Shown in pieces: positions 34,525 through 53,930 of a stretch of 64,000 nucleotides of DNA; position 1 is the first letter of the stretch, and every line of letters begins with the position of its first letter. Made by a program: the position numbers and the translations under genes. The notes under the pieces are model-generated. The model searched no databases and was not told the origin of the DNA. It saw nothing but the letters and a program-made list of their open reading frames with translations. Source of the stretch: Ornithodoros turicata (lineage: Eukaryota; Arthropoda; Arachnida; Ixodida; Argasidae); NCBI RefSeq assembly GCF_037126465.1, contig NC_088201.1, positions 82,736,273 through 82,800,272 on the forward strand, written 5' to 3'.

Positions 34525-34786
34525 AGTAGTAGAGCGACAAGGATTAAATCGTCCAAGGATAGATTCGATCATCGCTAAGGTCTAATATCGGAGGGTATTT
34601 GGAGCAGGATACTTTCCGCCCAAGGAGGAGCGCGAGCCAAGACCGCCCCCGCGCGTTTCGCGGCCGCGCGTAGAGAGGGGTTTCCTTCTCGCGGGTTTCC
34701 TTCTCGCGTTTGAACATGCGTGAACATGCAAAATACATCTTATTCCCTTTCCACATCTTTTAATACATCCCCGAGCGGGGAGTTTT
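34525..34786 (+). repeat. Terminal inverted repeat (left), element 1
   Basis: 262 bp, reverse complement of 44479-44744 with very few differences; the right copy has about 4 extra bases in a gcgcgag/cgctcgcg stretch. Contains the GC-rich core gcgcgtttcgcggccgcgcg. Open frames inside it are by-products of the repeat. Confidence 0.92.
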
Positions 34787-35047
34787 CCTACCGCACTTAA
34801 CATAGCATACTTTCCTCCTGAAGACATGCAAGCAATAGACATACACATTTGTACAAGTGAAAAATATTTTATTAATGCCAATTAAAGCCAATGATGCTTA
34901 GTAATGTCAATTAAAGCCAATGGTGCTGGGGATTGCCAATTATGTTGCCAATCTGCGTGAAGGAGAAAACCCCAGCGGAAAAACCTTCACACCTGAAACA
35001 GAAGAAACATACAAGACAGTACACATTTTCTACAACAGAAAATATTT
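34787..35047. other. 3' flank of the micro-exon gene, shared with element 2
   Basis: Noncoding. On the minus strand it contains atgtttcttctgtttcag followed by gtgtgaaggtttttcc and ctccttcac. The same block recurs four times in element 2 (near 45415, 46020, 57120 and 57735). The conserved acceptor-like tract followed by GTGAAGG downstream of the terminal exon suggests an alternative last exon or a 3' processing region. Confidence 0.5.
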
Positions 35048-36592
35048 TTATTCCATATTTAGTAAATCAATTAATGATTGTAATAAACTTTCTCGAATAA
35101 TGTCCCTAATGGCGTCCGGATCTGAAAGATAACATATAATCAGCATTCGCCACATTGCTTACCCAACCAGATGACTCACTGCAGCAGTAGCAGCAATGAT
35201 CTGAAAGAGAACCTAAATATTAAGAACAACATCCACACTTCCATTCACATATACGTACGATGCATAGGGGGGGCAGGGTAATCTGAAAACAAATGCAACA
35301 ACTATTAATATCGGCTACATAAAAACGATATGCCACTGGAACTCTATATCCTGAAAGAGAACATTCACATATACGTACGATGCATAGGGGGGCCAGGGTA
35401 ATCTGAAAACGGGGGGCCAGGGTAGTCTGAAAACAAATACAACTATGAATATCGGCTACATAAAAAAACGATATGCCACTGGAACACTATATCCTGCAAG
35501 AGAACATTCACTTATACATACGATGCATAGGGGGGCCGGGGTAGTCTGAAAACAAAGACAACAACTATTAATATCGGCTACATAAAAACGATATGCCACT
35601 GGAACTCTATATCCTGAAAGAGAACATTCACTAATACATACACTGCATAGGGGGGCCAGGGTAGTCTGAAAACAAAGACAACAACTATTAATATCGGCTA
35701 CATAAAAACGATATGCCACTGGAACTCTATATCCTGAAAGAGAACATTCACTAATACATACACTGCATAGGGGGGCCAGGGTAGTCTGAAAACAAAGACA
35801 ACAACTATTAATATCATCATGTACATAAAATGATATGCCATTGGAACACTATATCCTGAAAGAGAATGTTCACTAATACATACACTGCATAGGGGGGCCC
35901 GGGTAGTCTGAAAACAAAGACAACAACTATTAATATCAAGCATGGTAACGAGGCCTATAACTATACTCACTGTCAGGAGGTGGTATCCAGTTAGTATCTA
36001 AAAAGATATTTGCAATTCAGATCAAGCATGGTAACGAGATCTATAACTATACTCACTGTCAGGAGGTGGTACCCGATGATCATCTAAAAGATATTTGCAA
36101 TTAAGATCAGACATGCAAACAGGATCTATAACTATACTCACTGTCTGGTGGTGGTACCCTGTGATCATCTAAAAAGATATTTGCTATTAAGATCAAGTAA
36201 TCAAAGTCATATGCTGGTACGTACTTTCATTTGATACCACACAAACTGATTCATCTGAAATGAAACTCATATATTAACATGAAATCTATGAAATGTCGCT
36301 AATACATACAGCTTGGTGGTGGCGACTCAGGCGCTGAAAAGAATGGAACTTTAGATACTTCTCGCTTTTCATATTCACCATTTCCTTACCGTCTTCGAAG
36401 TAAAACACAGGGCTCGACGTGAACACTGAGAAAGATAATATTCTTAAGAAAATGAACTTGATGAGAAAAACCACCAAAACTCACCACTATCATCATCATC
36501 TTCAAAACTCGAGAAAACTGAGAAAGACAACTTTCATAAGAAACCTAACTTTAAGGTAAAAACCGTCAAAACTTACCACCATCGTTGGCCAT
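35048..36592 (-). CDS. Spliced micro-exon gene of element 1
   Basis: Minus-strand gene built from tiny exons, each with a pyrimidine-rich ..cag or ..tag acceptor and a GTGAGT/GTAAG/GTATGT/GTACGT donor. First exon ends at 36577 (MANDG; ATG at 36592, 5' end uncertain). Internal exons: 36485-36517 (FSSFEDDDDS), 36390-36425 (FTSSPVFYFED), 36310-36333 (PESPPPS), three 27-nt Pro exons, six 24-nt YPGPPM exons, 35180-35200 (HCCYCC). Terminal exon 35048-35121 (PDAIRDIIRESLLQSLIDLL...) ends in TAA with AATAAA overlapping. All 13 internal exons are multiples of three and every junction is phase 1. Including all exons gives about 142 residues: acidic N-terminus, Pro/Tyr repeats, Cys cluster, amphipathic helix. 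I do not recognise a function. Structure is inferred from splice signals, phase and the matching 3' end in element 2. Confidence 0.6.
35259..35907 (-). repeat. 120-bp tandem array carrying six 24-nt exons
   Basis: Exons at 35884-35907, 35762-35785, 35642-35665, 35522-35545, 35379-35402 and 35259-35282, mostly 120 bp apart. Each is preceded by ttgttttcag (or tttgttttcag) and followed by GTATGT or GTACGT. They encode YPGPPMQ or YPGPPMH (YPAPPMH in the last). A seventh, truncated copy sits at 35411-35426. The intervening 'ctctttcag' segment starting gatatag has a poor donor and would create a stop in phase, so I treat it as intron. Confidence 0.7.
35971..36168 (-). repeat. ~86-bp tandem array carrying three 27-nt exons
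   Basis: Exons at 36142-36168, 36057-36083 and 35971-35997, each preceded by atatctttt(t)ag and followed by GTGAGTATAG. In phase they encode DHRVPPPD, DHRVPPPD and TNWIPPPD. Introns are only ~60 nt. The donors are close to the metazoan consensus. Confidence 0.7.
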
Positions 36593-36656
36593 ATTGCTTC
36601 CAAGTGATGCTCTAGGAACAAAATCTTCATTTTTTAAAGCTGACGCATCCTCATTA

Positions 36657-36839
36657 TCATATCACATCCTCTCCTACTTTGTATAAACAACTTTTAGCAA
36701 CAAGATGGTGGGCTAGAGAAATCCACATGTAGCAAAAGTCTTTGTAGTAAACAACCAATTGCAAACTAAGGAAAAACGCAACCAATAGGGAAAGTATGCA
36801 CATCCTCTCCATCGGATTCCTTTTCAACATCCCCCTCAC
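36657..36839 (-). CDS. Small putative membrane protein
   Basis: A 60-residue frame with a basic start (MRGMLKRNPMERM) and one strongly hydrophobic segment (CILSLLVAFFLSLQLVVYY) typical of a signal anchor. It lies between the micro-exon gene and the 37114 gene inside element 1. The frame opens upstream as well, so the start is uncertain. I do not recognise a family, and an acidic alternative frame overlaps; it could instead be noncoding 5' sequence of the micro-exon gene. Confidence 0.3.
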   Translation of the reverse strand: MRGMLKRNPMERMCILSLLVAFFLSLQLVVYYKDFCYMWISLAHHLVAKSCLYKVGEDVI

Positions 36840-37113
36840 AGTCGACGATGGAAGCGCAGAAGTGCTACGCGGTCTCTGAGGACGATTGTATGTATAGAAA
36901 GTTTTCCCGTTTTTCCCTCTCTAAAAATGTGATTCTTTGTTAAGATTCTGATTGTCTCCTGACGGGGGATCTTCCTCTTGTGAAGACATTGAAGCCACCA
37001 CCCAGAACTTTCTTTATACAATATGATGAGCATCTGCGACGCTGTCGTTGTGGTGGATTGTGGTCATCGAATCCATCTCATTGGCTAGACAATAACATCC
37101 GACCTTATCTCGG

Positions 37114-37524
37114 TTGCCATCCAAGCTCGGATCAACCATGAAGCCCAGTGAACGATTTGCTTTGACGGTACAATGGCTGATGTACAAGGATTTGATGAAA
37201 TTAAACTCCTATCTGAACTGCAACGGACCAGAGGATGATTTTCGTCTCATTATGCAAATTCTCCCGTTTCCGATGCGGACGAAACGAGGAAAGATTAGTC
37301 GGAGGCTCCAACGCTTCGTCGCCATCAAGTGTGACTTGTTGCGACGGTATCGTCAGGGTGACAATATCTCTCCAACCATACTTAATGCTGGACTCAAGCG
37401 ACCAATAATTCGAAACGTTTACATCCAACACTAGGAATACATCGTGCGTCGCAAGAAAGATAGTTGTCGCAAGGTGTCGAGTCTGGAGGACTATCTGAAA
37501 GAGGTCTGTACATTGAAGAAATAA
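37114..37524 (+). pseudogene. Conserved Polinton-associated protein, nonsense-mutated
   Basis: The only plus-strand gene here. The 106-residue frame ends at TAG 37432-37434, but homologous sense continues to TAA 37522-37524, which overlaps an AATAAA. It is clearly homologous to the 115-residue protein in both arms of element 2 (50025-50372 and 52944-53291): shared blocks are LMYKDLMKLN / LMYHHLLKLN, the GPPDDF / GPEDDF motif, RFVAIKC / KFVATKC, and GDNISPxxxNAGxKRPIIR. The alignment passes across the TAG, so this copy has a premature stop about 30 codons early. Basic, no membrane segment, function unknown. It converges on the protease gene. Confidence 0.65.
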
Positions 37525-37540
37525 AATGAGACATTTTTCT

Positions 37541-37975
37541 TTAAATGAGGTATTCCTCTTCAATCATTTTTATTATCTTGAGGTCATTGTGTACAAGGTT
37601 ATTGTCAAATAAGGAAACAATGCTCTTGAGTTGGTAATTCTTACAAAGGCGGGAAGCAAAGAAACAAACAAAAAGTCCACAGTGTGAGCTGTAAATGCTT
37701 TGAATGCATTTCTCGCAATACTGATCAACAGGTAGATCTAGCAGCTCTTCTTCAATCGGTGGTAGACCAAAGCTGTCCACATAGATGTACTTGTCATTCC
37801 TGTCTCTCATGTACAATAGCCAGTGTTCTCCTGGACCATCGTGTGGGTGTGTATTGATAACTATAAACCCTTCTGTCGTTAAACTTGGTACCATATCAAT
37901 TGCGAAGGTCCCACGATACATATTCAAAGTTTCATGGTTCAGAGAAAACAATAATTCCAGATCAAACACATTCAT
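37541..37975 (-). CDS. Adenain-like cysteine protease
   Basis: 144 residues. The catalytic layout matches adenovirus-type maturation proteases (family C5/Ulp fold): His51 in GEHW, Asp67 in YVDSFG, Gln92 for the oxyanion hole, and Cys99 in SHCGLFVCFF, with the Gln-Cys spacing of seven typical of the family. In Polintons and adenoviruses this enzyme processes virion proteins. The start ATG follows the capsid gene's stop by 2 bp, so the two genes are adjacent on one strand. The ORF is intact, slightly shorter than adenain. Confident family assignment. Confidence 0.85.
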   Translation of the reverse strand: MNVFDLELLFSLNHETLNMYRGTFAIDMVPSLTTEGFIVINTHPHDGPGEHWLLYMRDRNDKYIYVDSFGLPPIEEELLDLPVDQYCEKCIQSIYSSHCGLFVCFFASRLCKNYQLKSIVSLFDNNLVHNDLKIIKMIEEEYLI

Positions 37976-37977
37976 GC

Positions 37978-39285
37978 TTAGTCCACTCGAACAACAAGAT
38001 CACCATCGACTGATAAAATCTTGGGTGCTTCACTAATAAGTATAACCGACACTGCGCAAGGTAATGGCTTAGCAAACTTCATTTCAATCCTGCAATTGCC
38101 CTTCCGCAATGGATTAAAGTAGGAACCAAAACTTTCGTCAGCACTCAAGTTCCAATGCATGATAAAGGAATTTTTTTTATATTTTTCATAACTCAACTCG
38201 ACATGTTTTTCATTCAGTTGATACAAGAATTCGTAGTAGCTTGTTCTACCCAGATCATTTTCCCAGTCATAGGATAGTTGCTTCCTGTGTCCATCAACTG
38301 ATAGTGTTACAGAACTAACATTAAAATGTTCGAAACAAAAGGGGCTCGACTTGTAATCACCCTGATAAGCCTCAGTGCGAACTAGACATACAATAAGTTG
38401 ATCAGGAATTCTATCAGGGAATAAGTTTTCAAAGATTGCATCATGAAGGCCCGGCGAAAGCGAGCGGACTTTGCTTTCTAGTCCACGCATGATGTAACAT
38501 GCCGGGGATGATCTAAGGGCTTTCTGGTGTGCAATAAAACTTGAGTTGCTAACTTTGACTTTGCGTGCTACAAGTGCCGCGCTGTGGATTTTCAATTGAT
38601 GCTTATGAGTTTCATTGGTGCCAGTTAGCAATCTAAAGCTATCCGTATTATGTAGAGCAGTCACTCGAACCCCCACACCGGGTAACAAAAGCCTCCCTTG
38701 GTTTGTGAGGTCGGTGTTAACTTTCATGACAATTTCAAATAGTTTCCCCCCACTTGTCCTAGCTATGCGCAACTTTGCATCCCGAGCGACTGGATCATTT
38801 GCTGCATGCTCTCCTGTGTCATATGTATACATTGCACAATCATCTAAAGTCTTCTGCAGATGAGTATTTGTATGAAGTAGGGTATCAATCATACATCGAT
38901 AGGAGTTCAAACAGTTGCTGCTTGCAAGACGTTGATTCAAGTGAATGGTTACATATTTAAATAAAGCGGCACCCAAGTTGTTGACTCGGAATACAATGTC
39001 CTCAGTGATACCGTCTGCTCTTCGGGTAATTGGTTCACTCCCGTCCGACCTCAATATCTGCATAGTTATATTAAAATACAGAGATGATAAATCGAGATAC
39101 AAGTCTGAGAGATTTGTTATGTTCCATTCGATCGTCGATTCTCCTCCGCTGATTGTAGAAACAGGATAATAAACTTGCGCCTCGCATGATTCTATTGAAA
39201 CTTGGGTCGGAGGTATGTTGAATAACTCACACTCCCCCTTCAAAGCCAGCTGGGACTGTGCGTGTACAACGTTGACCTGCGACAT
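37978..39285 (-). CDS. Major capsid protein (hexon-type)
   Basis: 435 residues, intact. It matches the family often annotated 'F54H12.2-like' in invertebrate genomes, the Polinton double-jelly-roll major capsid protein. Recognisable features are the N-terminal STIEWNITNLSDLYLDLSSL block, the SCEAQVYYPVST segment, a long beta-rich body and the closing strands (RIEMKFAKPLPCAVSVILIS). It would form trimeric pseudo-hexagonal capsomers. It sits directly upstream of the protease. Family assignment comes from recall of sequence character, not a search. Confidence 0.8.
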   Translation of the reverse strand: MSQVNVVHAQSQLALKGECELFNIPPTQVSIESCEAQVYYPVSTISGGESTIEWNITNLSDLYLDLSSLYFNITMQILRSDGSEPITRRADGITEDIVFRVNNLGAALFKYVTIHLNQRLASSNCLNSYRCMIDTLLHTNTHLQKTLDDCAMYTYDTGEHAANDPVARDAKLRIARTSGGKLFEIVMKVNTDLTNQGRLLLPGVGVRVTALHNTDSFRLLTGTNETHKHQLKIHSAALVARKVKVSNSSFIAHQKALRSSPACYIMRGLESKVRSLSPGLHDAIFENLFPDRIPDQLIVCLVRTEAYQGDYKSSPFCFEHFNVSSVTLSVDGHRKQLSYDWENDLGRTSYYEFLYQLNEKHVELSYEKYKKNSFIMHWNLSADESFGSYFNPLRKGNCRIEMKFAKPLPCAVSVILISEAPKILSVDGDLVVRVD

Positions 39286-39289
39286 CTTT

Positions 39290-40003
39290 GCAAATGAAAA
39301 GGTACAATGCTTTCCTCATAGCTTTATTTGTTAGCATCTTACCCGAGCAAAAAAGACTCTTCCAATCCCCCTTTACCTTTTGACATCGCCCTCTCAACCC
39401 AACCCTACCTGGGCCACATGTATTTCGGAATGCGATGGTCGATTCGAAGCATTGTCCACCACACTTTCTACAAGTGAAAGGCGACCCATTGTCCCGACTT
39501 CTAACCAGCTTGGATGCTGATGCACACTTTTAACCCCCCACTGACCCGCTGTTTTCAGAATGCGATCCCGTTCACAATTGGAATCATTGTCCTCCAGCCC
39601 CCTTACCATTTGACATTGTCTGCTGGCGAGCATGGTCCGTTTTTGCTAACCATCAGCCGTTCCACTCCTCTAACCCCCCGCCGACCACTTTTTTGAATGC
39701 GATCCCGTTCACGATTGGAATCATTGTCCTCCAATCCCCCTTTACCTTTTGACATCGCCCTCACAAGCCAGCCCTACCTGGGCCACCTGTTTTTTTTCGA
39801 AACGCGATGACCGCTTCGAAGCATTGTCCGCCACACTTTCTACAGGTGAAAGGGGGCGACCCATTGTCCCGACTTCTAACCCCTCTTGGTCGCCATTTTC
39901 GGAGTGCGATCCTTTTCCATAGAAAAACCTTTTTTCTTTATAAAGAAGAAACATCAATGTGTGAAAAAAAAAAGTGTCTTCTTTATTTCATGGTTACAGA
40001 GGA
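39290..40003. repeat. Imperfect direct repeats in the gap between capsid and pX-like genes
   Basis: Blocks such as cctttaccttttgacatcgcc, cctacctgggccacctgt, gaagcattgtccgcc and gacccattgtcccgacttct recur two or three times (39365-39535, 39580-39690, 39720-39900). No coding frame is preserved through them. It may be the promoter region of the capsid-protease pair, since the capsid ATG is at 39285. Confidence 0.6.
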
Positions 40004-40330
40004 TTAATCGAAAATGTCTCTTCTCTTCCTCTTTTTCCTTCGATGTCCGCTGCCTGCAATGTCCTTCAAAATCTGTGTGCCTAATTCATTTGAGCTTGCT
40101 CTCAGTGCTTGCTTGATGTTTTGCCCTTCAGATAACTTTTTCGCCAAATTTTTCGCTGCGCTCATCGCAGTACGGGCTATGTAAGGCTTTGCACGATGCA
40201 ATAGTGGCAATGCTAGCTTACGCAAAGAACTAAAGAAGCCATTCCCAGATTGAAAAAGAGGTCCTTTATACGGCACTAAATCACCAAGTCCCAATCCATA
40301 ATGGATCTCCGGCACTTCTTTAAGATACAT
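40004..40330 (-). CDS. Small basic virion-type protein (pX/pVI-like)
   Basis: 108 residues: N-terminal PEIHYGLGLGDLVPYKGPLF, a GNGFFSSLRKLALPLLHR amphipathic stretch, then Ala-rich helix (AMSAAKNLAKKLSEG) and a strongly basic tail (HRRKKRKRRDIFD). This matches the small Polinton/adintovirus protein likened to adenoviral pX or pVI cores and membrane-active proteins. Gly-Gly-like sites near the N-terminus could be processed by the element's protease. It overlaps the upstream gene's end by about 10 bp. Function is inferred from family resemblance. Confidence 0.6.
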   Translation of the reverse strand: MYLKEVPEIHYGLGLGDLVPYKGPLFQSGNGFFSSLRKLALPLLHRAKPYIARTAMSAAKNLAKKLSEGQNIKQALRASSNELGTQILKDIAGSGHRRKKRKRRDIFD

Positions 40331-41606
40331 TTTTGAAGTGTAGAACTAGAGCTGTACGACCTGGTCCTCTAAAATGAAGTGGACGACCTGTCTCATCATA
40401 CAACTTAATCGAAATTGACGTGATTTCGTTCTGTAACAGCTTCAAATATTGCACGTTATGGAAGCTGTAATGAATCTGGGGATCATCTTTATGTAAATAT
40501 GGGACGAGTTTCAAAATGGGAAACTTTTTTGCACCTATATGAGATGATTCGATAATATCACAATAAATCACGAAATTGTGAAACAATGGTTTAAGATTGA
40601 GAGGTGTGGTTCCGGTGGTGGTGTTTGCAATAGACTGAATTGGTGCGAAACCCAACATATTACTCAAATATTCAGAAAGATCTATAGTTACTCCATCAAG
40701 TGGAGTGAAAGTAAACAGCTGTGTATCTTCATTGTACGTTAGTATAGCATTGCTGCCTATCACACCTCTGATAGCTTGTAGAAGCGAACGTGGTGTCTCG
40801 TAATAATTTGGTGGAATTTGGACTTCTTCCCTTGCAAGTGTTACTTTTTCTAGAACAACACTAAAACTGAATGTAAATGGATCTCCAATGTATTGTGTTG
40901 TATTTTCTAACAGTTTACTGGAGTTTAATTTGAGGAGTCTCTTGAGTTGTTCAGGGATAACAAAGAGACGTGGGACCAATAATGTATAGGTATTGTTTTG
41001 AAATAGTATCTTTCCATCGATTTCATATCTTTTAAAGAAGCGATTTAGTGTGACAGTGATAGGGCGACCTGGTATGAACATGATTGGAGCATATTGTGTA
41101 ATGATAGTCACCTCTTCCTTTAAAAGCATCTTTGAGATAGCTTCCTCTCCCATGTACATGTTCTGACGTGGAACTTTAGCACCTGCAACTTTCAAACCCT
41201 GTATAGTGGACACACCCATGGCTTGTTGCAGTTCTTCATCCAAAAACTTAATAGAACGAATTATTTGAGGTAGTTGGAATGTGTACCTTCCATCAACATA
41301 ACCAAATGCGATGTTGAATTCTTTTAAAAAATCTTGCAGCGCGTGTTCCAAAGTCGATATCACAACAACTTCCTTACGCAGCTCAATAATGCTTCTGGAA
41401 GTAATATGTATAGTAGCATCGTTAGTCCGTGGAACGTTGTAGAATACATTAGAGATGGAAAGTTCATGCAGGCCGACTTCATATTCTTCATTCACTTGTA
41501 GTGGTGCACTCAGAGTGATTGTAAAGTCATTGAGACTGTTGTTCGGATGCATATCCATGCAATCATTGGATAAGAGATACATGTAAAAATCAGAACTTCG
41601 CGACAT
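40320..41606 (-). CDS. Probable minor capsid (penton-type) protein
   Basis: About 428 residues from the second methionine (MSRSSDFYMYLLSNDCMDMH) at 41606; the frame extends 11 codons further. It contains the conserved start F-Y-x-x-L-x-S-N-x-x-x-x-x-x-P-x-N-S-L-x-D-F and EVGLHELSISNVFYNVPR, which recurs in a Polinton-associated family across invertebrates. I take it as the minor capsid or vertex protein because it accompanies the major capsid gene in this family; a tail or fibre role is possible. Intact. It overlaps the integrase stop by 17 bp, consistent with compact viral packing. Confidence 0.65.
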   Translation of the reverse strand: MSRSSDFYMYLLSNDCMDMHPNNSLNDFTITLSAPLQVNEEYEVGLHELSISNVFYNVPRTNDATIHITSRSIIELRKEVVVISTLEHALQDFLKEFNIAFGYVDGRYTFQLPQIIRSIKFLDEELQQAMGVSTIQGLKVAGAKVPRQNMYMGEEAISKMLLKEEVTIITQYAPIMFIPGRPITVTLNRFFKRYEIDGKILFQNNTYTLLVPRLFVIPEQLKRLLKLNSSKLLENTTQYIGDPFTFSFSVVLEKVTLAREEVQIPPNYYETPRSLLQAIRGVIGSNAILTYNEDTQLFTFTPLDGVTIDLSEYLSNMLGFAPIQSIANTTTGTTPLNLKPLFHNFVIYCDIIESSHIGAKKFPILKLVPYLHKDDPQIHYSFHNVQYLKLLQNEITSISIKLYDETGRPLHFRGPGRTALVLHFKNVS

Positions 41607-42624
41607 CTTGGGCTGGAACCCAGGAATTAAATGAGTCATCGTAACCTAGCCATTTCACTTTATAATGTGTGACACCATTTATTTTCTTTCGACTTACTAT
41701 GCGTTCAATCGGGTATGGGTCGTCTTGCGATTTCACTACACGTTGCAATTCATTGGCATAGTAAGTTGCATCGTCTTCGACCCCATCTGGTCCAGCTATG
41801 TAAAACACTGGTGGATCCGAGTTCTTGTATCGTGTGATCGTGTAGACAACTAAGGACCAGTGCCCAATGTAGCCCTTGTCAAAAATTGATCTACTTGTGA
41901 GTACGCGCACCTGATCACCGATATTCAATGTAATCTTGTTTGGTTTGTTGTCATTTTTACTGTGAAGTCTATTGAATAGTTCAATCTCGTTATTTTTATC
42001 GACGTCGTTCGGGGCCATCTTGATAGTCGAGTGATATGATGAATTGTAGTCAGCGATGATCTTTGGGAGAACAGCAATGTACTTGTGATGGCCTTTACTG
42101 GCGAAATAACGATAAAGTCTAGCTTTAACAGTTTTGATAGCGCGTTCAACGACCGCAGCCTTGAAGGGTGAAAAAGAGCTAAACATGTGTATTGAGTGAT
42201 GTTTACACCATGCTTTCACATGTTTGTTATAGAACTCTCTCCCTCTATCTACCTGCAAGAGATTTGGATAGACTTTATGGCTCCTATACAACTTGATCAA
42301 TCCTTTCTTCACATCTTCACCACGCTTGGTCTTAATGGGTGTAGCCATGAGTCGTCTTGATAAGCAGTCTATCACAATGAGTATGAAGGAAAATCCTTTA
42401 TTTTGTTTCTTGTACTGCAGGAATGAAATCAGGTCTGCTTGATGAAGATCGTCGATGTGCAGTGAGATGGTCTTTCTTCTCTTAAATCTACGTCTTCCTT
42501 CTTTGTAAAGTGTGTGGACATCATCTCGCTGTAGTTCTTCGATTGCCTGTTTCTTAGAGATGTTTCGACCTCTGCAGTATCGGGCAACCCCCCCCAAACC
42601 AGCGTTTGGATCCCTATAATTCAT
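41590..42624 (-). CDS. Polinton integrase with C-terminal chromodomain
   Basis: 344 residues. Catalytic core of a retroviral-type DDE integrase: Asp64 in LHQADLISF, Asp126 in LLQVDRGREFYN and Glu160 in FKAAVVERAIKT, with the conserved K-x-K-x-G region between the two aspartates. The C-terminus (about residues 295-340: YPIERIVSRKKINGVTHYKV, KWLGYDDSFNSWVP) is a chromodomain, suggesting targeting to modified chromatin. It would insert linear DNA with 6-bp duplications, as seen at both ends of this element. Intact ORF and all three catalytic residues present. Confidence 0.9.
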   Translation of the reverse strand: MNYRDPNAGLGGVARYCRGRNISKKQAIEELQRDDVHTLYKEGRRRFKRRKTISLHIDDLHQADLISFLQYKKQNKGFSFILIVIDCLSRRLMATPIKTKRGEDVKKGLIKLYRSHKVYPNLLQVDRGREFYNKHVKAWCKHHSIHMFSSFSPFKAAVVERAIKTVKARLYRYFASKGHHKYIAVLPKIIADYNSSYHSTIKMAPNDVDKNNEIELFNRLHSKNDNKPNKITLNIGDQVRVLTSRSIFDKGYIGHWSLVVYTITRYKNSDPPVFYIAGPDGVEDDATYYANELQRVVKSQDDPYPIERIVSRKKINGVTHYKVKWLGYDDSFNSWVPAQDVAKF

Positions 42625-43160
42625 TCTTCTTCTGTGATATATTCATCTGATGATGATGATGAAAGCAACTTTGTTCTTTGGGGCGATTTATACGTTTCCC
42701 AGAGTATACGTTTCCTTGCTTTCCTCTTCTGACGTATTTTGTGTGGCTGCAAGAACTTTGCCACTTTTTGGTACCAGGCAGGCTTCCCTTTCTTGTGTCC
42801 GGACAGATGCAACACCAATTCTTTTATATTAGAACCAGCGATTGCTTGGTTGTTATGAATGATTTCTCCCTTATCATTCCAAGTCAAGCTCCTAGGTAGC
42901 ACTGAGACTACACGTCTTACTTTTTTAATGTTGACATTACAAGGAAGCGAATTGTAATCAAATGAGCGTCCCATTGGAAGTGACTCATCATTTTTTTCTT
43001 CCTGTACTGTGGATGCTGGCTCTGTTTCATTAGACGGTTTCTGATGATTTTTTATAATGTAGTACATAGCAGTTAACATTCGTTTTACTTTAATATCATC
43101 GCTTTCGTTAGATTCCAGAATTGATTCGATAGGAGTCAATACCTCAACCTTTGTAGCCAT
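42621..43160 (-). CDS. Conserved Polinton structural-region protein, unknown role
   Basis: About 179 residues (from the methionine of MATKVEVL; the frame begins a few codons earlier in a lysine run). Features: an acidic, Ser/Glu-rich middle, a conserved-looking block with WNDKGEIIHNNQAIAGSNIK and ELVLHLSGHKKGKPAWYQ, and a basic tail ending in SSSSSDEYITEEE. Similar blocks accompany Polinton capsid genes in other animals by my recollection. Its stop overlaps the integrase start by ATGA-type packing. Exact function unknown. Confidence 0.55.
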   Translation of the reverse strand: MATKVEVLTPIESILESNESDDIKVKRMLTAMYYIIKNHQKPSNETEPASTVQEEKNDESLPMGRSFDYNSLPCNVNIKKVRRVVSVLPRSLTWNDKGEIIHNNQAIAGSNIKELVLHLSGHKKGKPAWYQKVAKFLQPHKIRQKRKARKRILWETYKSPQRTKLLSSSSSDEYITEEE

Positions 43161-43167
43161 TTTTTTT

Positions 43168-43533
43168 TTAGACACCTACCGTCTTTGCTAGAGCACGACC
43201 TGCGACACCACCGAGCACACTGGTTAATCCCGTGAGTAATAAGGGGATTAGTGGCACTAATCCACCCCTCTGACGATAGAGGAAGGATCTTAGTCTTTTT
43301 GGTGATTTGTGCAGCGTTTTATATGCAATGTATCGAATGGTGTGTTTATACTTTTCCAGCTCTTTGAACAATCTGGGCGGTAGCTTAATATTACCATTCA
43401 ATATATTCTTACAGACTTCAGAAAGAGCTTCTATGCTATGAGGTGGCGCCTCCTTTAAAATCTCATCGCGCTCTTTGGGAGTACATGTTGCAAGGACTTT
43501 TAGAAAAGTTAAATGATGACGCAGAGTTTTCAT
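43168..43533 (-). CDS. Conserved Polinton protein with Gly-rich hydrophobic tail
   Basis: About 121 residues from the methionine at 43533 (MKTLRHHLTFLKVLATCTPK); this ATG overlaps the ATPase TGA as ATGA, which decides the start. Contains EALSEVCKNILNGNIKLP, a short basic region (KSPKRLRSFLYRQRGG) and a C-terminal hydrophobic stretch (LVPLIPLLLTGLTSVLGGVA). This small-protein family recurs with Polintons in many animals. The tail could be membrane-active or a virion component. Function unproven. Confidence 0.6.
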   Translation of the reverse strand: MKTLRHHLTFLKVLATCTPKERDEILKEAPPHSIEALSEVCKNILNGNIKLPPRLFKELEKYKHTIRYIAYKTLHKSPKRLRSFLYRQRGGLVPLIPLLLTGLTSVLGGVAGRALAKTVGV

Positions 43534-44160
43534 TTTGGCAAGAAAACAAACTGTCGAACGTTTCCAGTAATGCCTGTTCGCAGACAAAATTGAGACTGCG
43601 TCATAGGGTGTAGGTCAATCACTAGATAACCAAATGGTTTCTCTGTTGCCTGCTCAAATGCACTGATAAAGTATGGTAATTGAGCTTTGCCGAAGATCTG
43701 GCGTCCTAAAAGTTCCAGCTGCGTGCGTGACCTTAAATTATTAAATAATATTATATATGTGCTATTGTGAGATAATGTTCTATAGTTGACGTCGTTGTGA
43801 AATAAGTACTGACAAAGAAAAACAATGGATGCGTTCTTATGATGTGATGCTCTCGTATAGAGATGAACCATTTCTTGCATCACATTCTTCTCAGTCATGA
43901 GATCGTCGACTATAATCAAAGTAGGCACGCTCTCATCCCATGTCTTTGGTAGCTCTTTCTGGAATGTAACATCATTTGCGAATTCATTTTGCCAGGTCGC
44001 ATCATATTTGCTAACGTAAAAGATTTGCTCTGGGACTACAGTGAATACTGTAAGATTTCTTAAAATGTTACGAACGAGATAGGTTTACCCGACATTGAAG
44101 GACCGCAAATAATAACCCTTGCAGGGTGGATAAAAGCAAATCGACCTGCGTCAGACATCA
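43530..44160 (-). pseudogene. FtsK/HerA-type packaging ATPase, frameshifted
   Basis: The ATG at about 44160 starts MSDAGRFAFIHPARVIICGP, followed by a Walker A loop (GPSMSGK). The frame is then lost to a single-base shift at about 44080. The correct frame continues to 43530 with the Walker B motif TLIIVDDLM and the conserved ARTQLELLGRQIF-like (here SRTQLELLGRQIF) and GYLVIDLHP blocks. This is the Polinton/adenovirus-IVa2-like DNA packaging ATPase. The lesion sits just past the phosphate-binding loop, so this copy makes no full-length enzyme. Gene position at the head of the late block is typical. Confidence 0.85.
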
Positions 44161-44223
44161 CGATGCAAAAGTAAATGAGACAATGAATAAGTGATGGTGT
44201 GAGAAATGGATTTATTGTACATC

Positions 44224-44430
44224 TCACCAATCGATTTGATCGTCTTGACTTTTCGCGGAACGACGCTTCATTTCTATAAGACGCTCGTGTGCGAGGAACC
44301 TCCTCACAGCTTCTGCTTTTGCTTCATATATTTCTTGTTTAAGTCGCCATTTTTTCTCGTCCGCCGTCTCCCGCTCATCATCATATTCCTTTCCAAAACA
44401 TCGAGTGAAAAGCTTCCATGCAGCTCCCAT
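44224..44430 (-). CDS. Small charged protein next to the right TIR
   Basis: 68 residues starting MGAAWKLFTRCFGKEYDDER, then a highly charged, coiled-coil-like helix (EIYEAKAEAVRRFLAHERLI). It lies between the ATPase start and the terminal repeat on the same strand. An MG start followed by a nearby cysteine would allow N-terminal lipidation, but this is speculation. No family recognised. Confidence 0.4.
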   Translation of the reverse strand: MGAAWKLFTRCFGKEYDDERETADEKKWRLKQEIYEAKAEAVRRFLAHERLIEMKRRSAKSQDDQIDW

Positions 44431-44478
44431 TTTGTGTAGAAAGTTGATAGGTGAGTTGATCGTTGGTAAATGACGATT

Positions 44479-44744
44479 AAAACTCCCCGCTCGGGGATGT
44501 ATTAAAAGATGTGGAAAGGGAATAAGATGTATTTTGCATGTTCACGCATGTTCAAACGCGAGAAGGAAACCCGCGAGAAGGAAACCCCTCTCTACGCGCG
44601 GCCGCGAAACGCGCGGGGGCGGTCTTGGCTCGCTCGCGCTCCTCCTTGGGCGGAAAGTATCCTGCTCCAAATACCCTCCGATATTAGACCTTAGCGATGG
44701 TCGAATCTATCCTTGGACGATTTAATCCTTGTCGCTCTACTACT
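44479..44744 (-). repeat. Terminal inverted repeat (right), element 1
   Basis: Mirror of 34525-34786, ending ...cgctctactact before tccata. One extra ~4-bp gctc/cgct unit compared with the left copy. Confidence 0.92.
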
Positions 44745-45046: not shown

Positions 45047-45491
45047 AGTAGTAATAGGTCTTGTCCATTTGACGACATTGCCGCCAGGGCAGCGCCACCG
45101 TCGCGTCTGGGCCGACTTCACTCGCGTATTTTTCCCCGTGCGGCGCCAGTGCGGAGGGTTGTGCGCGCGCTTATCGGCGGGGGAGGGCTGCGCGTGCTCT
45201 CATCGTAGCGTATTTTTCAGCCTGGGCTGACTTCTTTGGCCATACATGGGCCGACTTCACATATTTTTCCGATACAACAGGTGAGCGGTTTACATGCAGA
45301 GACATGCAAAGAAGGGTCATACACAAAAAGTACAAGTGAAAATATATTTATTAATGCCAATCAAGTTGCCAATTGTAAAGCCAGTGCTGGGAATTGTGAT
45401 GCCAATCAGGTGAAGGAGAAAAACCCGACCGAAAAACCTTCACGACCTGTAACAGAAGAAACACAATACACATAATAAAGAATACATACAT

Positions 45492-45804
45492 TTATTGCTC
45501 TCTAAATATTTCCATTAGTGTATTAACAATTACATTTTTTTAAAACTCTTTTGTTTCCGCCCCTGAAAGAAAACACAAAATTAACGTCGTCACATTTGCT
45601 TACCACACGATAACTCACGTTGGACACAGCACTGACCTGAAAAGTAGATTTTGTTATTATGCGAAACCACACTTATATTTCAATAATACATACAATGCTG
45701 TGGTGGCAGACCCCAGTAATCTGTAAGTGAACATCATTTATTATTTTAATTATGCTATAACTTTTACTTACATTCAGGCGCTGGTCTTAGTACTGACGTG
45801 TATG
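45492..45804 (-). CDS. Micro-exon gene 3' end, left arm of element 2
   Basis: Mirror of 57366-57678: exons 45772-45804, 45694-45720, 45619-45636 and terminal exon 45492-45562 on the minus strand, with the same splice signals and phase-1 junctions. Minor substitutions occur in the first exon (a TSV-type reading instead of TPV). See the right-arm entry for the homology to element 1. Confidence 0.5.
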
Positions 45805-46379
45805 CTGAAAAGATATTATCAATTAATAACACACCAGACTTCTTTGGCCATACATGGGCCGACTTCACATATTTTCCGATACAACAGGTGAGCGGTTTAC
45901 ATGCAGAGACATGCAAAGAAGGGTCATACACAAAAAGTACAAGTGAAAATATATTTATTAATGCCAATCAAGTTGCCAATTGTAAAGCCAGTGCTGGGAA
46001 TTGTGATGCCAATCAGGTGAAGGAGAAAAACCCGACCGAAAAACCTTCACAACCTGTAATAGAAGAAACACAACACACATAATAAAGAACATACTTACTC
46101 ATTACCAATTTCACAGATTCCATATGGATATGACTCAATGGCATTAAAGAGGTATCTCTTATCAAAGTGGGCCAACTTCTTTCCTCATTTTTCAATCTGC
46201 GCCGAATTTTTTCGCGACTTTTTCCCGTGCGCGACAAGCGACGCTCGGGTAGAGGGCTGCTGCGGTGGGCGGAGCGTGGCCGGAGGGCTGCGTGAGCGCT
46301 TACTTGCTCACATTTTTTCAGCCTGGGCCGACTTCTTTCATCATTTTTCAATCTGTGTCGACTTCAATCGCAATTTTTT

Positions 46380-49140
46380 TCCCGCTACAGCAGGTGTGCA
46401 GTAGGCGATTTACATGCAAAGGATAGCTATACACAAAAGTACGAGTGAAAATATATTTATTAAAGTCATTAGTGTCAGGAATTATATTATGACTCAGTGT
46501 GAAGGAGAAAAACTCAGTCAAAAAATCTGATGCAATAGCATTGAAGGGGTATTTTATTAGTGATAATCACGCAAGTTTTCAATTAAGCAGAAGGAGTAGC
46601 ACATTTTTAATAAAAGAAGATATTTTTAATCAATACGATTACTATCAAATTAAAAGTTTTATTATAAAAAGTCTAACATGACAACCATAGCGGAGTTTTA
46701 ATTACAATGTTCTGATATGTAACTTCATGCGCAACAGCTAGTATTCCATTATGACATATTTAATCAAAGAATATATTTTTAATCAATATGATTACAACCA
46801 AAATTAAAAGTTTTATTATAAAAAGTCTAACATTATTATACGTGACCACCATACTGGAGCTTTAATTACAAGTGCCGATATATGTATGTGAACAGCAGAG
46901 AACATGGAAGACCATGGGACACGAACACAAGAGGAAATAAAATCTATAACAATACATTGGTTAATCAAAACAACAGAGGAGGAGACTATCATTTTAACTA
47001 TCATAAAATCACCCTCGTGACTTCCCCATACAATTTTCATTCTAAGAGACACTTTGTTTTATGAATTCAACACAGAAAATATATTAAAAAATGAACTTCA
47101 CCACATAGCACGCTCCTAGCCAACAATCAGCTCTAATAATATCTGCCCTGATTTGTTGAAGACGGCAGGCGTACACCTGACAGTTATGAACATTTTCGAG
47201 CGCAATAGGGAAGATTATTCCAACATTACACAATTAATGAATTTCTTATTAAGTAAACAGCATAGACATACGGAAATAATGAGAAAAACGATCAACAGCT
47301 AATAGAGAACCAAAACAGATCACATAAACAACAGACACATGCAGGAAAATAAATGGAAAAGAATCTACCAAAACGATCAACATGCACGGATGAACAGCAG
47401 AGAACCTGGAAGACCATGGGACACGAACACAAGAGGAAATAAAATCTATAACACTACATTGGTTAATCAAAACAACAGAGGAGGAGACTATCATTTTAAC
47501 TATCATAAAATCATCCTCGTGACTTTCCCATACAATTTTCATTCTAAGAGACACTTTGTTTTATGAATTCAACACAGAAAATATATTAAAAAATGAACTT
47601 CACCACATAGCACGCTCCTAGCCAACAATCAACTCTAATAATATCTGCCCTGATTTGTTGAAGACGGGAGGCGTACACCTGACAGTTATAAACATTTTCG
47701 AGCGCAATAGGGGAGATTATTCAAACATTACACAATTAATCGATTTCTTATTAAGTAAACAGCATAGACATACGGAAATAATGAGAAAAAACGATCAACA
47801 GCTAATAGAGAACCAGAACACATCACATAAACAACAGACACATGCAGGAAAATAAATGAAAAAAGAATCTATCAAAACGATCAACATGCACGGATGAATG
47901 GCAGAGAAACACTTTGAACAGCACATGATGAATAATTTAATACAGCATAGAGCTAACGCTAAGAAACACTCTAAACGGCGCATCTGCCAACGTGTAAACA
48001 ACAGACAGGAAAATATTACTGAAACAGCTAATAGAGAGCCAAAATCCAAAGCGCAAACAAGAGGTACACAAAGGATAAATACTTGAAGAACAATCTAACA
48101 AAACAAGAAACATGCATGGATGAATAGCAGAGAAACACTCTAAACGATGCATCTACCAACGGTAAACAACAGACACATGCAGGAAAATAATTGAAAAAGA
48201 ATCAATCAAAACGATAAACATGCACGGATGAATAGCAGAGAAAGGCTTTGAACGATGCATCTGCCAACATGTAAACAACACACAGGAAAATAATAGCGAA
48301 ACATTACAATTTGAAATAATATATCTTTTGAACTATCATAAAATCAACCTTGCGAGCTAACAATATCCTACTCAGGCACTTACCTTGACAGAGGTATCCA
48401 AACAAGCACCACAGCTTTACAATAATTACAACCAGACTCGAGACACGGTGGGGTCACTCTCTCCCTCTATGCAGACCGGTGGGGTCACTCTCTCCATCTA
48501 TACAGTCCAAAAAGCGGGGAGCCTGTTGTCAATCTGCGGGTGGGGAAATTCTCTCTCTTTTTCAAATTCTTTCCTCCAAAAAGGAAATATTCTTAGGACC
48601 GGTGTACAGAGGCGAAATTTTTCATTGATCGCAAATAGACATTGGAATTATTCGATTCTAAAGAACACAATAAGAATTATATTTAAAAAAATCTAAGAAT
48701 AGACTTTCTAAGCAAATGAGAAATATTATCGGCGCAAACAATACCAAATGAGACGCGATGAATTTTATTGTATTTCAGATCAGACAAAACTATTAGGCAT
48801 ACATTATTCTCAACTCACAAATATCATTCGATTGAATATCTGAAGCAAAGAGAGAAAGTCAAATTTATTCAATGATAGAAACAATACTCATTCGAAAACG
48901 AGAATCAAATTTAATTACATCATTTTATGTTAACTTTGCAATACACGCAGAAGTCGCAAACAACTCATCTGAAATGCAAATTATTGTGTTTGCTATAGCG
49001 GAAATCAACGCACACAACATTCCCAAATAATATAATATTTTTATTAATATCAATCGAGTGATCACCTGAAACAAAGTCAAAAGCAATAATTAATTTAGGC
49101 AAACATTTTTCATAATCACACAGCGCAAATATACATCACA
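46380..49140. repeat. AT-rich, internally duplicated region of left arm
   Basis: A ~502-bp unit (including gaacagcagagaacatggaa at 46891 and its copy at 47393) is tandemly duplicated. Further inward, 47870-48320 holds several imperfect copies of an ~100-bp motif with acatgcacggatgaatagca and acgatgcatctgccaac. At 48440-48500 a ggtggggtcactctctccct unit is doubled. Short open frames here are not conserved-looking. I see no gene, although isolated splice-like signals exist on the minus strand. Confidence 0.5.
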
Positions 49141-49145
49141 GAAAC

Positions 49146-49385
49146 ATGTCTTTTTTTCATTCAGGACCCACTAGTGGAAACGAAGTGAGAGAGTTCCCGT
49201 ACACATTCGTTAAGGTTACGCCCGCGGGGAGTAGGGGAATCCAAACAATGGTCTCGGTATACAAAGCCATAAAATCGCTCCTACAAGTCAAGTTAGGGAA
49301 GGAGGGTCTCTTGCGTTGTCTTGTACATAGAATCACTGAGAGCAAACATTTTTCCTTTACACATCACATCTTTTTTGTAAATTGA
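49146..49385 (+). CDS. Unknown 79-residue frame or terminal exon (left arm)
   Basis: A pyrimidine-rich tctttttttcattcag precedes GACCCACTAG, and the frame (GPTSGNEVREFPYTFVKVTP, then YKAIKSLLQVKLGKEGLLRC) runs to TGA, followed by several AATAAA signals near 49420-49455. It may be the last exon of a plus-strand spliced gene rather than a stand-alone gene. Mirrored at 53931-54170. No family recognised. Confidence 0.3.
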   Translation: MSFFHSGPTSGNEVREFPYTFVKVTPAGSRGIQTMVSVYKAIKSLLQVKLGKEGLLRCLVHRITESKHFSFTHHIFFVN

Positions 49386-49473
49386 CTTTCATAATTCTAA
49401 CGTCAGGTGGAACATTATGAACCTGATAATAAAATTTTAATAAATAAAATTAGCACCAATATGATTTAATTAA

Positions 49474-49956
49474 ATGTCGAGGCGCACTACAAAACAGAAC
49501 AGACAATTGCTATACATTGAAGAGATGGACGGATTTTGTACTCGTTACCATACGTCATGGGAGGACCTGATAAAAAGCTGCTTCGAAAAGGAGGAGCCGC
49601 GAAACGATTCATTTATCGCTGCATTTCAATACGTCCTAGACATGGTCGTATTCGGAGATATGGCACAAATTATGGAATTCAAGATGCGAGAACTTGTATG
49701 CCGAATCTACAATAGTTATAAAAATATTTGCACGTCATCATCGGAAGGACTACTTGGGTTGATGGTGGAGTTTTTGAGGTTTGCTAACGAAGAATTGAAA
49801 TACACTAGACCAAATGTAATTGTAATCATTGCAATGGGTATTGCATTAATCAAGAAAGCAATCAGATCAAATTATCATATACAAGCAGTCTATATCGCAC
49901 GATTCATTACGGATTTGTTGAAATTACACCTAACGGTTGAAATGGAAAGTACATAA
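49474..49956 (+). CDS. Putative Bcl-2-fold protein (left arm)
   Basis: 160 residues, mostly helical. I see a Bcl-2-like layout: a BH3-like M-x3-G-D at residues 57-62 (VVFGDMAQIM), a BH1/helix-5-like segment at 107-126 (EELKYTRPNVIVIIAMGIAL) with the expected acidic start, hydrophobic core and glycine, and a helix-6-like IARFITDLLKLHL at 141-153. Spacings agree with cellular Bcl-2 proteins. The conserved W/G-R of BH1 and the BH2 tryptophan are missing, and there is no membrane anchor. Animal DNA viruses often carry apoptosis inhibitors of this fold, so such a role is plausible, but it is inference from motif shape only. The neighbouring gene is 69 bp downstream. Confidence 0.45.
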   Translation: MSRRTTKQNRQLLYIEEMDGFCTRYHTSWEDLIKSCFEKEEPRNDSFIAAFQYVLDMVVFGDMAQIMEFKMRELVCRIYNSYKNICTSSSEGLLGLMVEFLRFANEELKYTRPNVIVIIAMGIALIKKAIRSNYHIQAVYIARFITDLLKLHLTVEMEST

Positions 49957-50024
49957 AAAATCTTATCACGTGGTATATCCTACCCTAGAACCTCTACACA
50001 TTTATTTTATTCTACCAGTCAAGG

Positions 50025-50372
50025 ATGTCGAATGAACAGAAGTTCAATATTGTCGTGCAAGGTCTGATGTATCATCACTTATTGAAACTCAACAAACATA
50101 TCAATTGTGGTGGGCCACCGGACGATTTTCATCTAATACTCTCTTGTACGCCATTCAAGAATCTTCATACAAAGAAAGGAAGCATCAATAAGAGACTGTG
50201 CAAGTTCGTCGCAACAAAGTGCAAGTTGTTGAAGCAATACAAACACGGCGACAACATATCACCTGCGTTAATCAACGCTGGATTCAAGCGCCCAATAATC
50301 AGAATAAATTACTTGATGTCTTCGGAATTCATCAATCAAGACAACAAACGAAAACTTCGGAGTTTGGAATAG
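50025..50372 (+). CDS. Conserved Polinton-associated protein (left arm)
   Basis: 115 residues. Homologous to the nonsense-mutated gene at 37114-37524 of element 1 through GPPDDFHLIL, KRLCKFVATKCKLLKQYKHG and GDNISPALINAGFKRPIIR. Basic, with alternating helices; no known domain. An AATAAA lies about 20 bp after the stop. Its presence in both elements, and its intactness here, suggest a function for the element rather than chance. It differs from the right-arm copy at one residue (K versus N near residue 45). Confidence 0.6.
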   Translation: MSNEQKFNIVVQGLMYHHLLKLNKHINCGGPPDDFHLILSCTPFKNLHTKKGSINKRLCKFVATKCKLLKQYKHGDNISPALINAGFKRPIIRINYLMSSEFINQDNKRKLRSLE

Positions 50373-50472
50373 AACTGTAATTTATCGAAATAAACAAGTG
50401 TATAATTGAAATAATAATTGTATTCTTTGTCATCATTCTAATGTATTCTACACAGCGCAACGAAAACAGCTT

Positions 50473-50751
50473 ATGACTAGATTGCTAAGGAGACACTACA
50501 TACAAGGATCTTCGCATGGAATGAGCGCCGGCAATCAAAGAGATTTTTTTTACACGACCACACTCCATACAACACCGACACCCGAAGGAAAGAATTGTAG
50601 AAGAATCGATAATAGAAATTTAGAGGCATGTTACATCAATCTTTGTTTACAAAGAGGATCACTAATATTTTGCGAAAGCTTATTTTACGAATTAAATTGC
50701 ACAGTGTATATATTTTCTCAGACTATTGGGCAGTTGACAATACTATATTGA
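50473..50751 (+). CDS. Unknown 92-residue protein (left arm)
   Basis: Starts MTRLLRRHYIQGSSHGMSAG, continues with a Thr-rich segment (FFYTTTLHTTPTPEGKNCRR) and ends with a hydrophobic stretch (CTVYIFSQTIGQLTILY). It is preserved in the right arm with three conservative differences. No homologue in element 1 and no family recognised. Third in a row of small plus-strand genes. Confidence 0.4.
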   Translation: MTRLLRRHYIQGSSHGMSAGNQRDFFYTTTLHTTPTPEGKNCRRIDNRNLEACYINLCLQRGSLIFCESLFYELNCTVYIFSQTIGQLTILY

Positions 50752-51604
50752 AAGGAATCTATTATCAAATGACGCGATGCAAGTGATGGACATGCATGAC
50801 GCGCTAGCGGAGTCTACAATTCTAATCATCATAACATGCGGCACACAATTCCAATAAGATTTTGGGAGAATCGAATCACGCAACTGTCATCAGAAATACT
50901 TAACCAATGAAGATGTGCACTATCCATAAGATATGTAATTATAATAAGTAAATATTCCTTTTGCAAACTTAACCAAAGCAGCACCCATAAACAGAGCTCC
51001 AATTCACAGAATGTACCCAAGGTTTTTAATTAGCCATACTGAAAAACTATGAGTCTGTTCATTATGTCACGACATATGAGGCACTACAAATGGGAATGGC
51101 ATACTTTAATTTTAGGAGATTTTAGCTCATAATGAAACAAAACGCAAACTGCAACACCAAAGGTTCTTGTTTAAATTTTCAAAGTCAAAACTGTATACTC
51201 TTTCTTACAATTTTTTAATATATAGATTAAAAAGCTGTCTATATAGTCACACATTGTATACAATATATTTGTTTGTACATTAATTGCTAAAATTTATCAG
51301 ATCACATTCCGGAGCAGTGGTGACTATCGGTAAGTGTTTAATTTGAACTGCTGCCGCAATTTACGAACTGAGTTGTAGAAAGTGTAATTTCACGGCTTTG
51401 GCTGGCTCACTTTGATACGCGAAGGTTTTAAGAACTCTTTCACGACGACAAAGAATTTAATCGAGCGTATTGATATTTTCTATACACTCTATAATGTGAT
51501 GTGAATTCTCCATGATGCGGATAGTAAAAGTTACGAATATTTTTTTCGAACAAAATTTACTTAAAACTCGGAGAAAGGGTCATCCGCGTCGTCGAACCCG
51601 TTTC
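50752..51604. other. Inner part of left arm, no clear gene
   Basis: AT-rich, running into the GC-richer centre. A 63-residue frame on the opposite strand (50829-51020; two hydrophobic segments) is preserved in both arms only because the arms are copies. Nothing is supported. Confidence 0.4.
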
Positions 51605-51711
51605 TGGAAGAAAGCAACACGCTAGCGTGCGGTACCGCGTTAACGCGTCGGGCGCAGAATCGCGTTCGGTTTCGGGTACGGCATTCGGGAAAGGCGGCCC
51701 GGCGTGTTGCC
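51605..51711. other. GC-rich, CpG-rich centre of the giant inverted repeat
   Basis: About 107 bp dense in CG dinucleotides inside otherwise AT-rich DNA. It is itself partly palindromic (gcaacacg near 51622 pairs with cgtgttgc near 51701) and contains gctagc, ggtacc and gttaac. It may be the turn of a replication hairpin or a regulatory centre. Confidence 0.5.
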
Positions 51712-52564
51712 GAAACGCATTCGACGACGCGGATGACCCTTTCTCCGAGTTTTAAGTAAATTTTGTTCGAAAAAAATATTCGTAACTTTTACTATCCGCA
51801 TCATGGAGAATTCACATTACATTATAGAGTGTATAGAAAATATCAATACGCTCGATTAAATTCTTTGTCGTCGTGAAAGAGTTCTTAAAACCTTCGCGTA
51901 TCAAAGTGAGCCAGCCAAAGCCGTGAAATTACACTTTCTACAACTCAGTTCGTAAATTGCGGCAGCAGTTCAAATTAAACACTTACCGATAGTCACCACT
52001 GCTCCGGAATGTGATCTGATAAATTTTAGCAATTAATGTACAAACAAATATATTGTATACAATGTGTGACTATATAGACAGCTTTTTAATCTATATATTA
52101 AAAAATTGTAAGAAAGAGTATACAGTTTTGACTTTGAAAATTTAAACAAGAACCTTTGGTGTTGCAGTTTGCGTTTTGTTTCATTATGAGCTAAAATCTC
52201 CTAAAATTAAAGTATGCCATTCCCATTTGTAGTCCCTCATATGTCGTGACATAATGAACAGACTCATAGTTTTTCAGTATGGCTAATTAAAAACCTTGGG
52301 TACATTCTGTGAATTGGAGCTCTGTTTATGGGTGCTGCTTTGGTTAAGTTTGCAAAAGGAATATTTACTTATTATAATTACATATCTTATGGATAGTGCA
52401 CATCTTCATTGGTTAAGTATTTCTGATGACAGTTGCGTGATTCGATTCTCCCAAAATCTTATTGGAATTGTGTGCCGCATGTTATGATGATTAGAATTGT
52501 AGACTCCGCTAGCGCGTCATGCATGTCCATCACTTGCATCGCGTCATTTGATAATAGATTCCTT

Positions 52565-52843: not shown

Positions 52844-52943
52844 AAGCTGTTTTCGTTGCGCTGTGTAGAATACATTAGAATGATGACAAAGAATACAATT
52901 ATTATTTCAATTATACACTTGTTTATTTCGATAAATTACAGTT

Positions 52944-53291: not shown

Positions 53292-53359
53292 CCTTGACTG
53301 GTAGAATAAAATAAATGTGTAGAGGTTCTAGGGTAGGATATACCACGTGATAAGATTTT

Positions 53360-53842: not shown

Positions 53843-53930
53843 TTAATTAAATCATATTGGTGCTAATTTTATTTATTAAAATTTTATTATCAGGTTCATA
53901 ATGTTCCACCTGACGTTAGAATTATGAAAG

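Follow-up and report, generated by a model that had tools for sequence, protein, structure and literature searches.

The window, by which we mean the whole 64,000-nt stretch of Ornithodoros turicata DNA analysed here (NC_088201.1), contains two neighbouring virus-like insertions, termed element A and element B. The minus strand of element A carries a predicted micro-exon gene (gene A, 36592–35048), located between one TIR and a protease-like gene. The coordinates of all features are collected in Table 1. The two TIRs of element A are identical in 262 of 267 aligned columns (98%), and the element is flanked by the 6-bp TSD TCCATA at 34519–34524 and 44745–44750. Its insertion site lies in a LINE, as indicated by the right flank, which matches RVT_1; the left-flank ORF gives zero Pfam matches, and another frame of that flank resembles, as judged by eye, the preceding part of the LINE protein.

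Element A shares with Polintons, Mavericks and adintoviruses the TIRs, the 6-bp TSD, an integrase and a capsid-like fold, and has a weakly matching candidate for an adenain-like protease. The model of the putative capsid protein (mean pLDDT 52), when compared with the PDB using Foldseek, retrieved the capsids of PBCV-1, Sputnik and mavirus with E values from 7e-12 to 4e-11 and TM scores of 0.38–0.49. Among viral models, a bracovirus protein ranked top, followed by adomavirus LO7 and an adintovirus protein. The predicted fold of this product thus matches that of double jelly-roll-type capsid proteins, the class to which the Polinton protein PY has been predicted to belong (PMC4028283). In viral contigs, neither the capsid-like protein nor a 70% relative of it, nor the integrase, nor either of two alignments brought up a confirmed relative, and no relative was returned from phage records. 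Element A differs from the known groups in that it contains a many-intron gene and in that Pfam found no polymerase in 38 of the 40 listed ORFs (70 aa or longer), which were scanned whole or nearly so; of the other two, 44474–44725 (TIR) and 44688–45230 (edge, LINE), the latter was covered in part, and a heavily broken remnant could escape the scan. The location of the gene inside a Polinton, as claimed in an earlier note on this DNA, is therefore upheld by the TIRs, the TSD, the integrase and the capsid-like fold, with the qualification that no polymerase was found in the ORFs scanned. Two further observations concern the coding content of the element: a 436-aa protein (40320–41630) contains a PPNY motif and has no Pfam match, and the ATPase-like reading seems to shift frame at 44060–44084, between two overlapping ORFs.

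Table 1. Positions of the features in the window, with the observations on which each row is based
Feature	Position	Strand	Evidence or remark
Element A, Polinton-type, 10.2 kb	34525..44744		TIRs, 6-bp TSD, gene content
TIR left, 262 nt	34525..34786	+	TIR alignment
Repeat between end of gene A and TIR, common to element B	34822..35009		73% over 193 columns
Gene A exon 16, last, 74 nt, stop	35048..35121	-	without P0006 support
Gene A exon 15, 21 nt, Cys-rich HCCYCC	35180..35200	-	5/6 residues in P0006
Gene A exon 14, 24 nt, array copy	35259..35282	-	scan chain, repeat comparison
Gene A exon 13, 48 nt, or 24 nt (35402-35379) via second acceptor	35379..35426	-	both in frame
Gene A exon 12, 24 nt, array copy	35522..35545	-	scan chain, repeat comparison
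Gene A exon 11, 24 nt, array copy	35642..35665	-	scan chain, repeat comparison
Gene A exon 10, 24 nt, array copy	35762..35785	-	scan chain, repeat comparison
Gene A exon 9, 24 nt, YPGPPMQ	35884..35907	-	single P0006 exon of the 24-nt type, 5/8 residues
Gene A exon 8, 27 nt, diverged copy	35971..35997	-	scan chain
Gene A exon 7, 27 nt, copy of exon 6	36057..36083	-	8/9 residues in P0006
Gene A exon 6, 27 nt, DHRVPPPDN	36142..36168	-	6/9 residues in P0006
Gene A exon 5, 30 nt, absent from the list in the earlier note	36225..36254	-	9/10 residues in P0006
Gene A exon 4, 24 nt, APESPPPSY (PPSY motif)	36310..36333	-	9/9 residues in P0006
Gene A exon 3, 36 nt, VFTSSPVFYFED	36390..36425	-	12/12 residues in P0006
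Gene A exon 2, 33 nt	36485..36517	-	scan chain; without in-frame P0006 support
Gene A exon 1, ATG, 16 nt	36577..36592	-	without P0006 support
Small ORF, counterpart in element B (50028-50369)	37147..37431	+	51/93 residues identical
Adenain/Ulp1-like protease, weak	37541..37975	-	PF02902 E 0.0011, PF00770 E 0.0037, neither reaching its curated cut-off
Capsid-like protein	37978..39285	-	predicted fold resembles double jelly-roll capsid proteins
Integrase with chromodomain	41590..42624	-	PF00665 (E 3.3e-9), PF00385
Packaging-ATPase-like part (Pox_A32-type)	43530..44084	-	PF04665
TIR right, 266 nt	44479..44744	-	TIR alignment
Element B, palindromic relative, 13.1 kb	45047..58123		TSD TCTGTC at 45041-45046, 58124-58129
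Element B last exon, stop	45540..45562	-	start from scan, end counted from sequence
Element B micro-exon, 18 nt, CQCCVQ	45619..45636	-	exon scan
Element B micro-exon, 27 nt, YYWGLPPQH	45694..45720	-	exon scan
Element B micro-exon, 33 nt	45772..45804	-	exon scan
Inverted counterparts of these three micro-exons, other arm of element B	57366..57551	+	exon scan

Gene A is modelled as 16 exons, comprising an ATG exon, 14 internal exons and a last exon in which an AATAAA signal overlaps the stop codon. The internal exons measure 21–36 nt (one possibly 48 nt), the lengths of all 14 are divisible by three, and every exon junction is in phase 1. The 15 introns, all of them GT-AG, span 55–98 nt: ten measure 55–63 nt and five (introns 9–13) 95–98 nt. 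Retention of an intron would introduce an in-frame stop in 13 of the 15 cases, introns 3 and 15 being open. Exon 13 can be read as 24 or 48 nt because a 24-bp duplication copied its acceptor plus part of the exon. With the shorter form, micro-exons account for 369 of the 459 coding nucleotides (80.4%); with the longer form, exons of at most 36 nt make up 71.4% of the coding sequence. The predicted product, of approximately 160 aa, is rich in Pro and Tyr, includes a PPSY motif, and has a Cys-rich segment encoded by the penultimate exon. The earlier note had described 13 internal exons at this place; strand, position and symmetry agree with our model, as do the terminal exon with its stop and AATAAA and the uniform length and phase rule, which extends to all 14 internal exons. 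The count was one short, since the 30-nt exon 5 had been overlooked. As a single intron phase is used throughout, each symmetric internal exon could be skipped, as also proposed in that note, and exon+intron units could be duplicated or lost, without a shift of frame.

Tandem exon+intron copies constitute nine of the 14 internal exons. Exons 6–8 form an array in which a unit of ~86 nt occurs three times, and exons 9–14 form a second array in which a unit of ~120–143 nt occurs six times; the array introns that were compared are 81–100% alike in aligned columns, with 0–5 gap columns. Merging of the array copies leaves about seven independent exon types. Judged from this repeat structure, gene A is a gene that has grown by duplication of exon+intron cassettes.

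The exon scan retained symmetric, phase-1-open stretches of 18–50 nt bounded by splice signals, and linked them through introns of 45–120 nt. These rules are a relaxed version of an earlier, stricter set and were chosen when gene A was already known; the shuffled sequences were scanned under identical rules. At gene A the scan yielded a chain of 14 exons, compared with at most two in 500 dinucleotide shuffles of the region (two being reached four times). The 5' part (exons 2–6) gave a chain of five, compared with at most two in 2000 shuffles (two being reached once). In whole-strand shuffles (n=20) the longest chain was one, and the same value was obtained on either strand of the window when gene A and element B were masked. 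The stricter scan had already produced a chain of eight at gene A, consisting of seven exons of the model and a longer exon 15, and chains of at most two elsewhere. The argument of the earlier note that chance agreement is very unlikely is borne out by these comparisons, but it was overstated, because tandem exon copies had been treated as independent.

Protein database searches with the micro-exon product, which detect just those relatives that have short exact words in common with it, returned a sole relative at E values up to 1 (5.8 billion proteins, 369 candidates scored). This relative, P0006, is an uncharacterized predicted protein of 111 aa from Ornithodoros turicata, and a profile search of proteins again gave it as the only match (90 candidates). 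A Pfam scan of the micro-exon product gave zero matches, and the fold prediction of P0006, computed from a single sequence, was uninformative (pLDDT 37). The P0006 prediction presumably rests on transcript reads, judging by usual annotation practice. In P0006 we located, in the same order and with equal residue lengths, counterparts of exons 3, 4, 5, 6 and 7, of one exon of the 24-nt type, and of exon 15, with 54 of 63 residues identical over these seven exons. Exon size is therefore constant between the two, whereas exon number varies: the 27-nt type occurs twice in P0006 and three times in gene A, and the 24-nt type once and six times, respectively. The stretches corresponding to introns 2 and 15 are read through in P0006, which leaves exons 1, 2 and 16 unsupported from outside. 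In the retained introns, 28 of 39 residues are identical, a proportion that does not differ significantly from the 54 of 63 in the exons (p=0.12); exons 3–7 alone gave p=0.049, this subset having been chosen afterwards. The peptides in this comparison were lined up by eye, and the intron-2 row is affected by the differing frame. Altogether, P0006 supports the predicted inner junctions of gene A. Its annotated start differs from that of the modelled product and is more hydrophobic. For gene A we considered whether exon 2 might likewise encode a hydrophobic start, as annotated in P0006, and rejected this, since that frame fails to rejoin exon 3 in frame here; we take the P0006 start for an annotation artefact or a peculiarity of that copy.

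Element B begins about 300 bp beyond element A, within the same LINE, and forms a nearly perfect palindrome. Where its two arms were compared, we counted 24 mismatches plus a single differing stretch of ~146 nt, and these differences argue against a simple assembly fold-back; element B may have arisen by snap-back from a linear genome of the protein-primed kind. Elements A and B have in common the terminal AGTAGTA, the TIR-side repeat and the small ORF. Between that repeat and that ORF, and in the orientation of gene A, element B contains three symmetric, phase-1 micro-exons followed by a last exon, separated by introns of 51, 57 and 56 nt. A chain of three was reached in none of 1000 arm shuffles, and a chain of two in seven of them; apart from gene A, the only chains of three in the window scan are the two arms of element B. 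The encoded peptide, YTSVLRPAPE-YYWGLPPQH-CQCCVQ-RAETKEF, resembles the end of the gene A product in that a Tyr/Pro exon is followed by a Cys-rich exon. Six of 5000 shuffles reached its alignment score to the product of gene A, and 18 of 5000 reached its score to P0006, values to which composition may contribute. The exons of gene A and element B are thus likely homologous. Of the exon set that the earlier note proposed to look for in related Polintons, element B shows the tail: three exons and an end exon lie at the corresponding place, the 5' part of the gene was not found in element B, and a 607-nt duplication occupies the position just upstream of the exons. The lack of a 5' part counts against homology, as do the remaining candidate exons in element B, which are isolated; one of them differs in length between the two copies of a 502-nt repeat (27 and 28 nt).

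One alternative is a chain of splice-like motifs assembled by chance, with no gene behind it. In its favour, agreement with a splice consensus says little by itself, and the scan rules were relaxed in knowledge of gene A. Shuffles under identical rules (14 against 2, 5 against 2, and 3 against 2 in element B) argue against such a chain, and the fit of the separately predicted P0006 to the same exon boundaries does so strongly; we consider this explanation extremely improbable.

The array copies provide little leverage on selection. Exons 6 and 7 differ at four nucleotides, all synonymous, and exons 7 and 8 at six nucleotides, all in changed codons. A case for strong selection built on these copies was dropped, as the two pairs point both ways, and the exon comparisons neither prove nor exclude constraint. 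This weak evidence of selection is one of several features that would suit a decaying gene or tandem-repeat array, whose splice signals would be relics spread by duplication of the 86- and 120-nt units and from which a protein is no longer produced. The origin of nine of the 14 internal exons as array copies, the apparent frame change in the ATPase-like reading and the failure to find a polymerase in the ORFs scanned would fit as well. Several observations speak against decay: the phase-1 reading is uninterrupted in all internal exons and each has a length that is a multiple of three, including the five of the 5' part; the capsid-like and integrase genes are open; and the TIRs are 98% alike, a similarity that suggests a young insertion of element A. 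We therefore judge decay to be improbable.

A more serious contender, which we nevertheless place below even odds, is that Polinton-type elements captured a host tick micro-exon gene, introns included, in which case P0006 would be the host copy. The only relative returned is indeed located on a contig of 108.6 Mb, and the capsid-like, integrase, protease-like and 436-aa genes of the element are single open readings. Gene A also departs from the genes of intact vertebrate Mavericks, which are described as intronless in PMC8097293, a difference that would fit capture. However, elements A and B both hold such exons at a corresponding, TIR-adjacent place, and the strong divergence of these exons suggests long residence in the elements; furthermore, P0006 could itself sit inside an element. 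On the present sequence evidence, the locus is best explained as a spliced accessory gene of a family of Polinton-type elements, coding mostly through symmetric phase-1 micro-exons, a reading to which we assign a probability of about 0.8.

As regards the function of such an accessory gene, gene A would be transcribed and then spliced as modelled, yielding an intracellular adaptor that is largely disordered and rich in Pro and Tyr. Through its short repeats and the PPSY motif it could bind WW-domain proteins of the host, or proteins with similar domains, and the adaptor might help particles or DNA of the element to exit or enter cells. A PPSY motif is also present in adenovirus protein VI, where it binds Nedd4 ligases (PMC2841620); in the gene A product, however, a PPxY may well have arisen by chance, as 48% of shuffles of this Pro-rich sequence contained one. 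The best support for the motif is the identity of exon 4 between gene A and P0006. We propose the role of a disordered intracellular adaptor that binds WW-type host proteins and aids particle or DNA passage as a speculation by analogy, and regard it as rather unlikely. An amphipathic helix at the C-terminus of the product was rejected as a candidate, because 7106 of 10000 shuffles reached the same amphipathicity. The modelled start of the product, encoded by exons 1 and 2, which lack P0006 support, shows no visible leader, with a best 11-residue hydropathy mean of 0.98.

Micro-exon genes are already known from host-interface proteins of schistosomes and from aphid effectors. In Schistosoma MEGs, ~80% of the coding sequence resides in short symmetric exons of 6–36 bp (PMC5825161), and a duplicated micro-exon has been described for them as well (PMC8293314). 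The share of coding sequence in micro-exons is similar in gene A (80.4%, or 71.4% if exon 13 is 48 nt). The products of MEGs, in contrast, are almost always secreted or exposed, whereas no hydrophobic leader is visible in the modelled product, whose start exons lack P0006 support, and gene A is carried by a virus-like element. Aphid bicycle genes contain many small internal exons, nearly all of which start at codon position 2 (PMC9168663), as the micro-exons of gene A also do; unlike gene A, however, they are genes for putative secreted effectors. Two protein searches, limited in reach to relatives with common short exact words, found no sequence relation of the gene A product to MEG families or bicycle genes. 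The comparison with micro-exon genes of parasites, which the earlier note had drawn, accordingly applies to the architecture, homology not having been found.

Among the matches listed in a literature search over open-licence papers with narrow term combinations, there was no micro-exon gene in Polintons or adintoviruses, in agreement with the earlier note, which knew of none, and no paper recognizable by its title as one on tick Polintons. A micro-exon gene that resides in virus-like elements and seems to occur there in two diverged forms would offer a concrete route for the origin of this architecture, for its growth by tandem exons and for its movement between genomes. We tentatively suggest, as an idea that is doubtful at present, that tick Polinton-type viruses carry a micro-exon system of their own, in which exon+intron duplication and exon skipping adjust the length of the protein and the number of its motifs, and that they could have passed the architecture to or received it from host genomes.

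Several minor features of the window may be recorded. The 502-nt repeat of element B contains isolated exon-like stretches at 47272–47298 (27 nt) and 47774–47801 (28 nt). Each arm of element B also carries a 160-aa ORF (49474–49953), with zero Pfam matches and with matches to solved structures at E 0.17 and weaker. Outside both elements, inverted repeats with arms of ~290 nt enclose a reverse transcriptase ORF at 24203–27332, and 287-nt tandem repeats adjoin this unit at 28132–28992.
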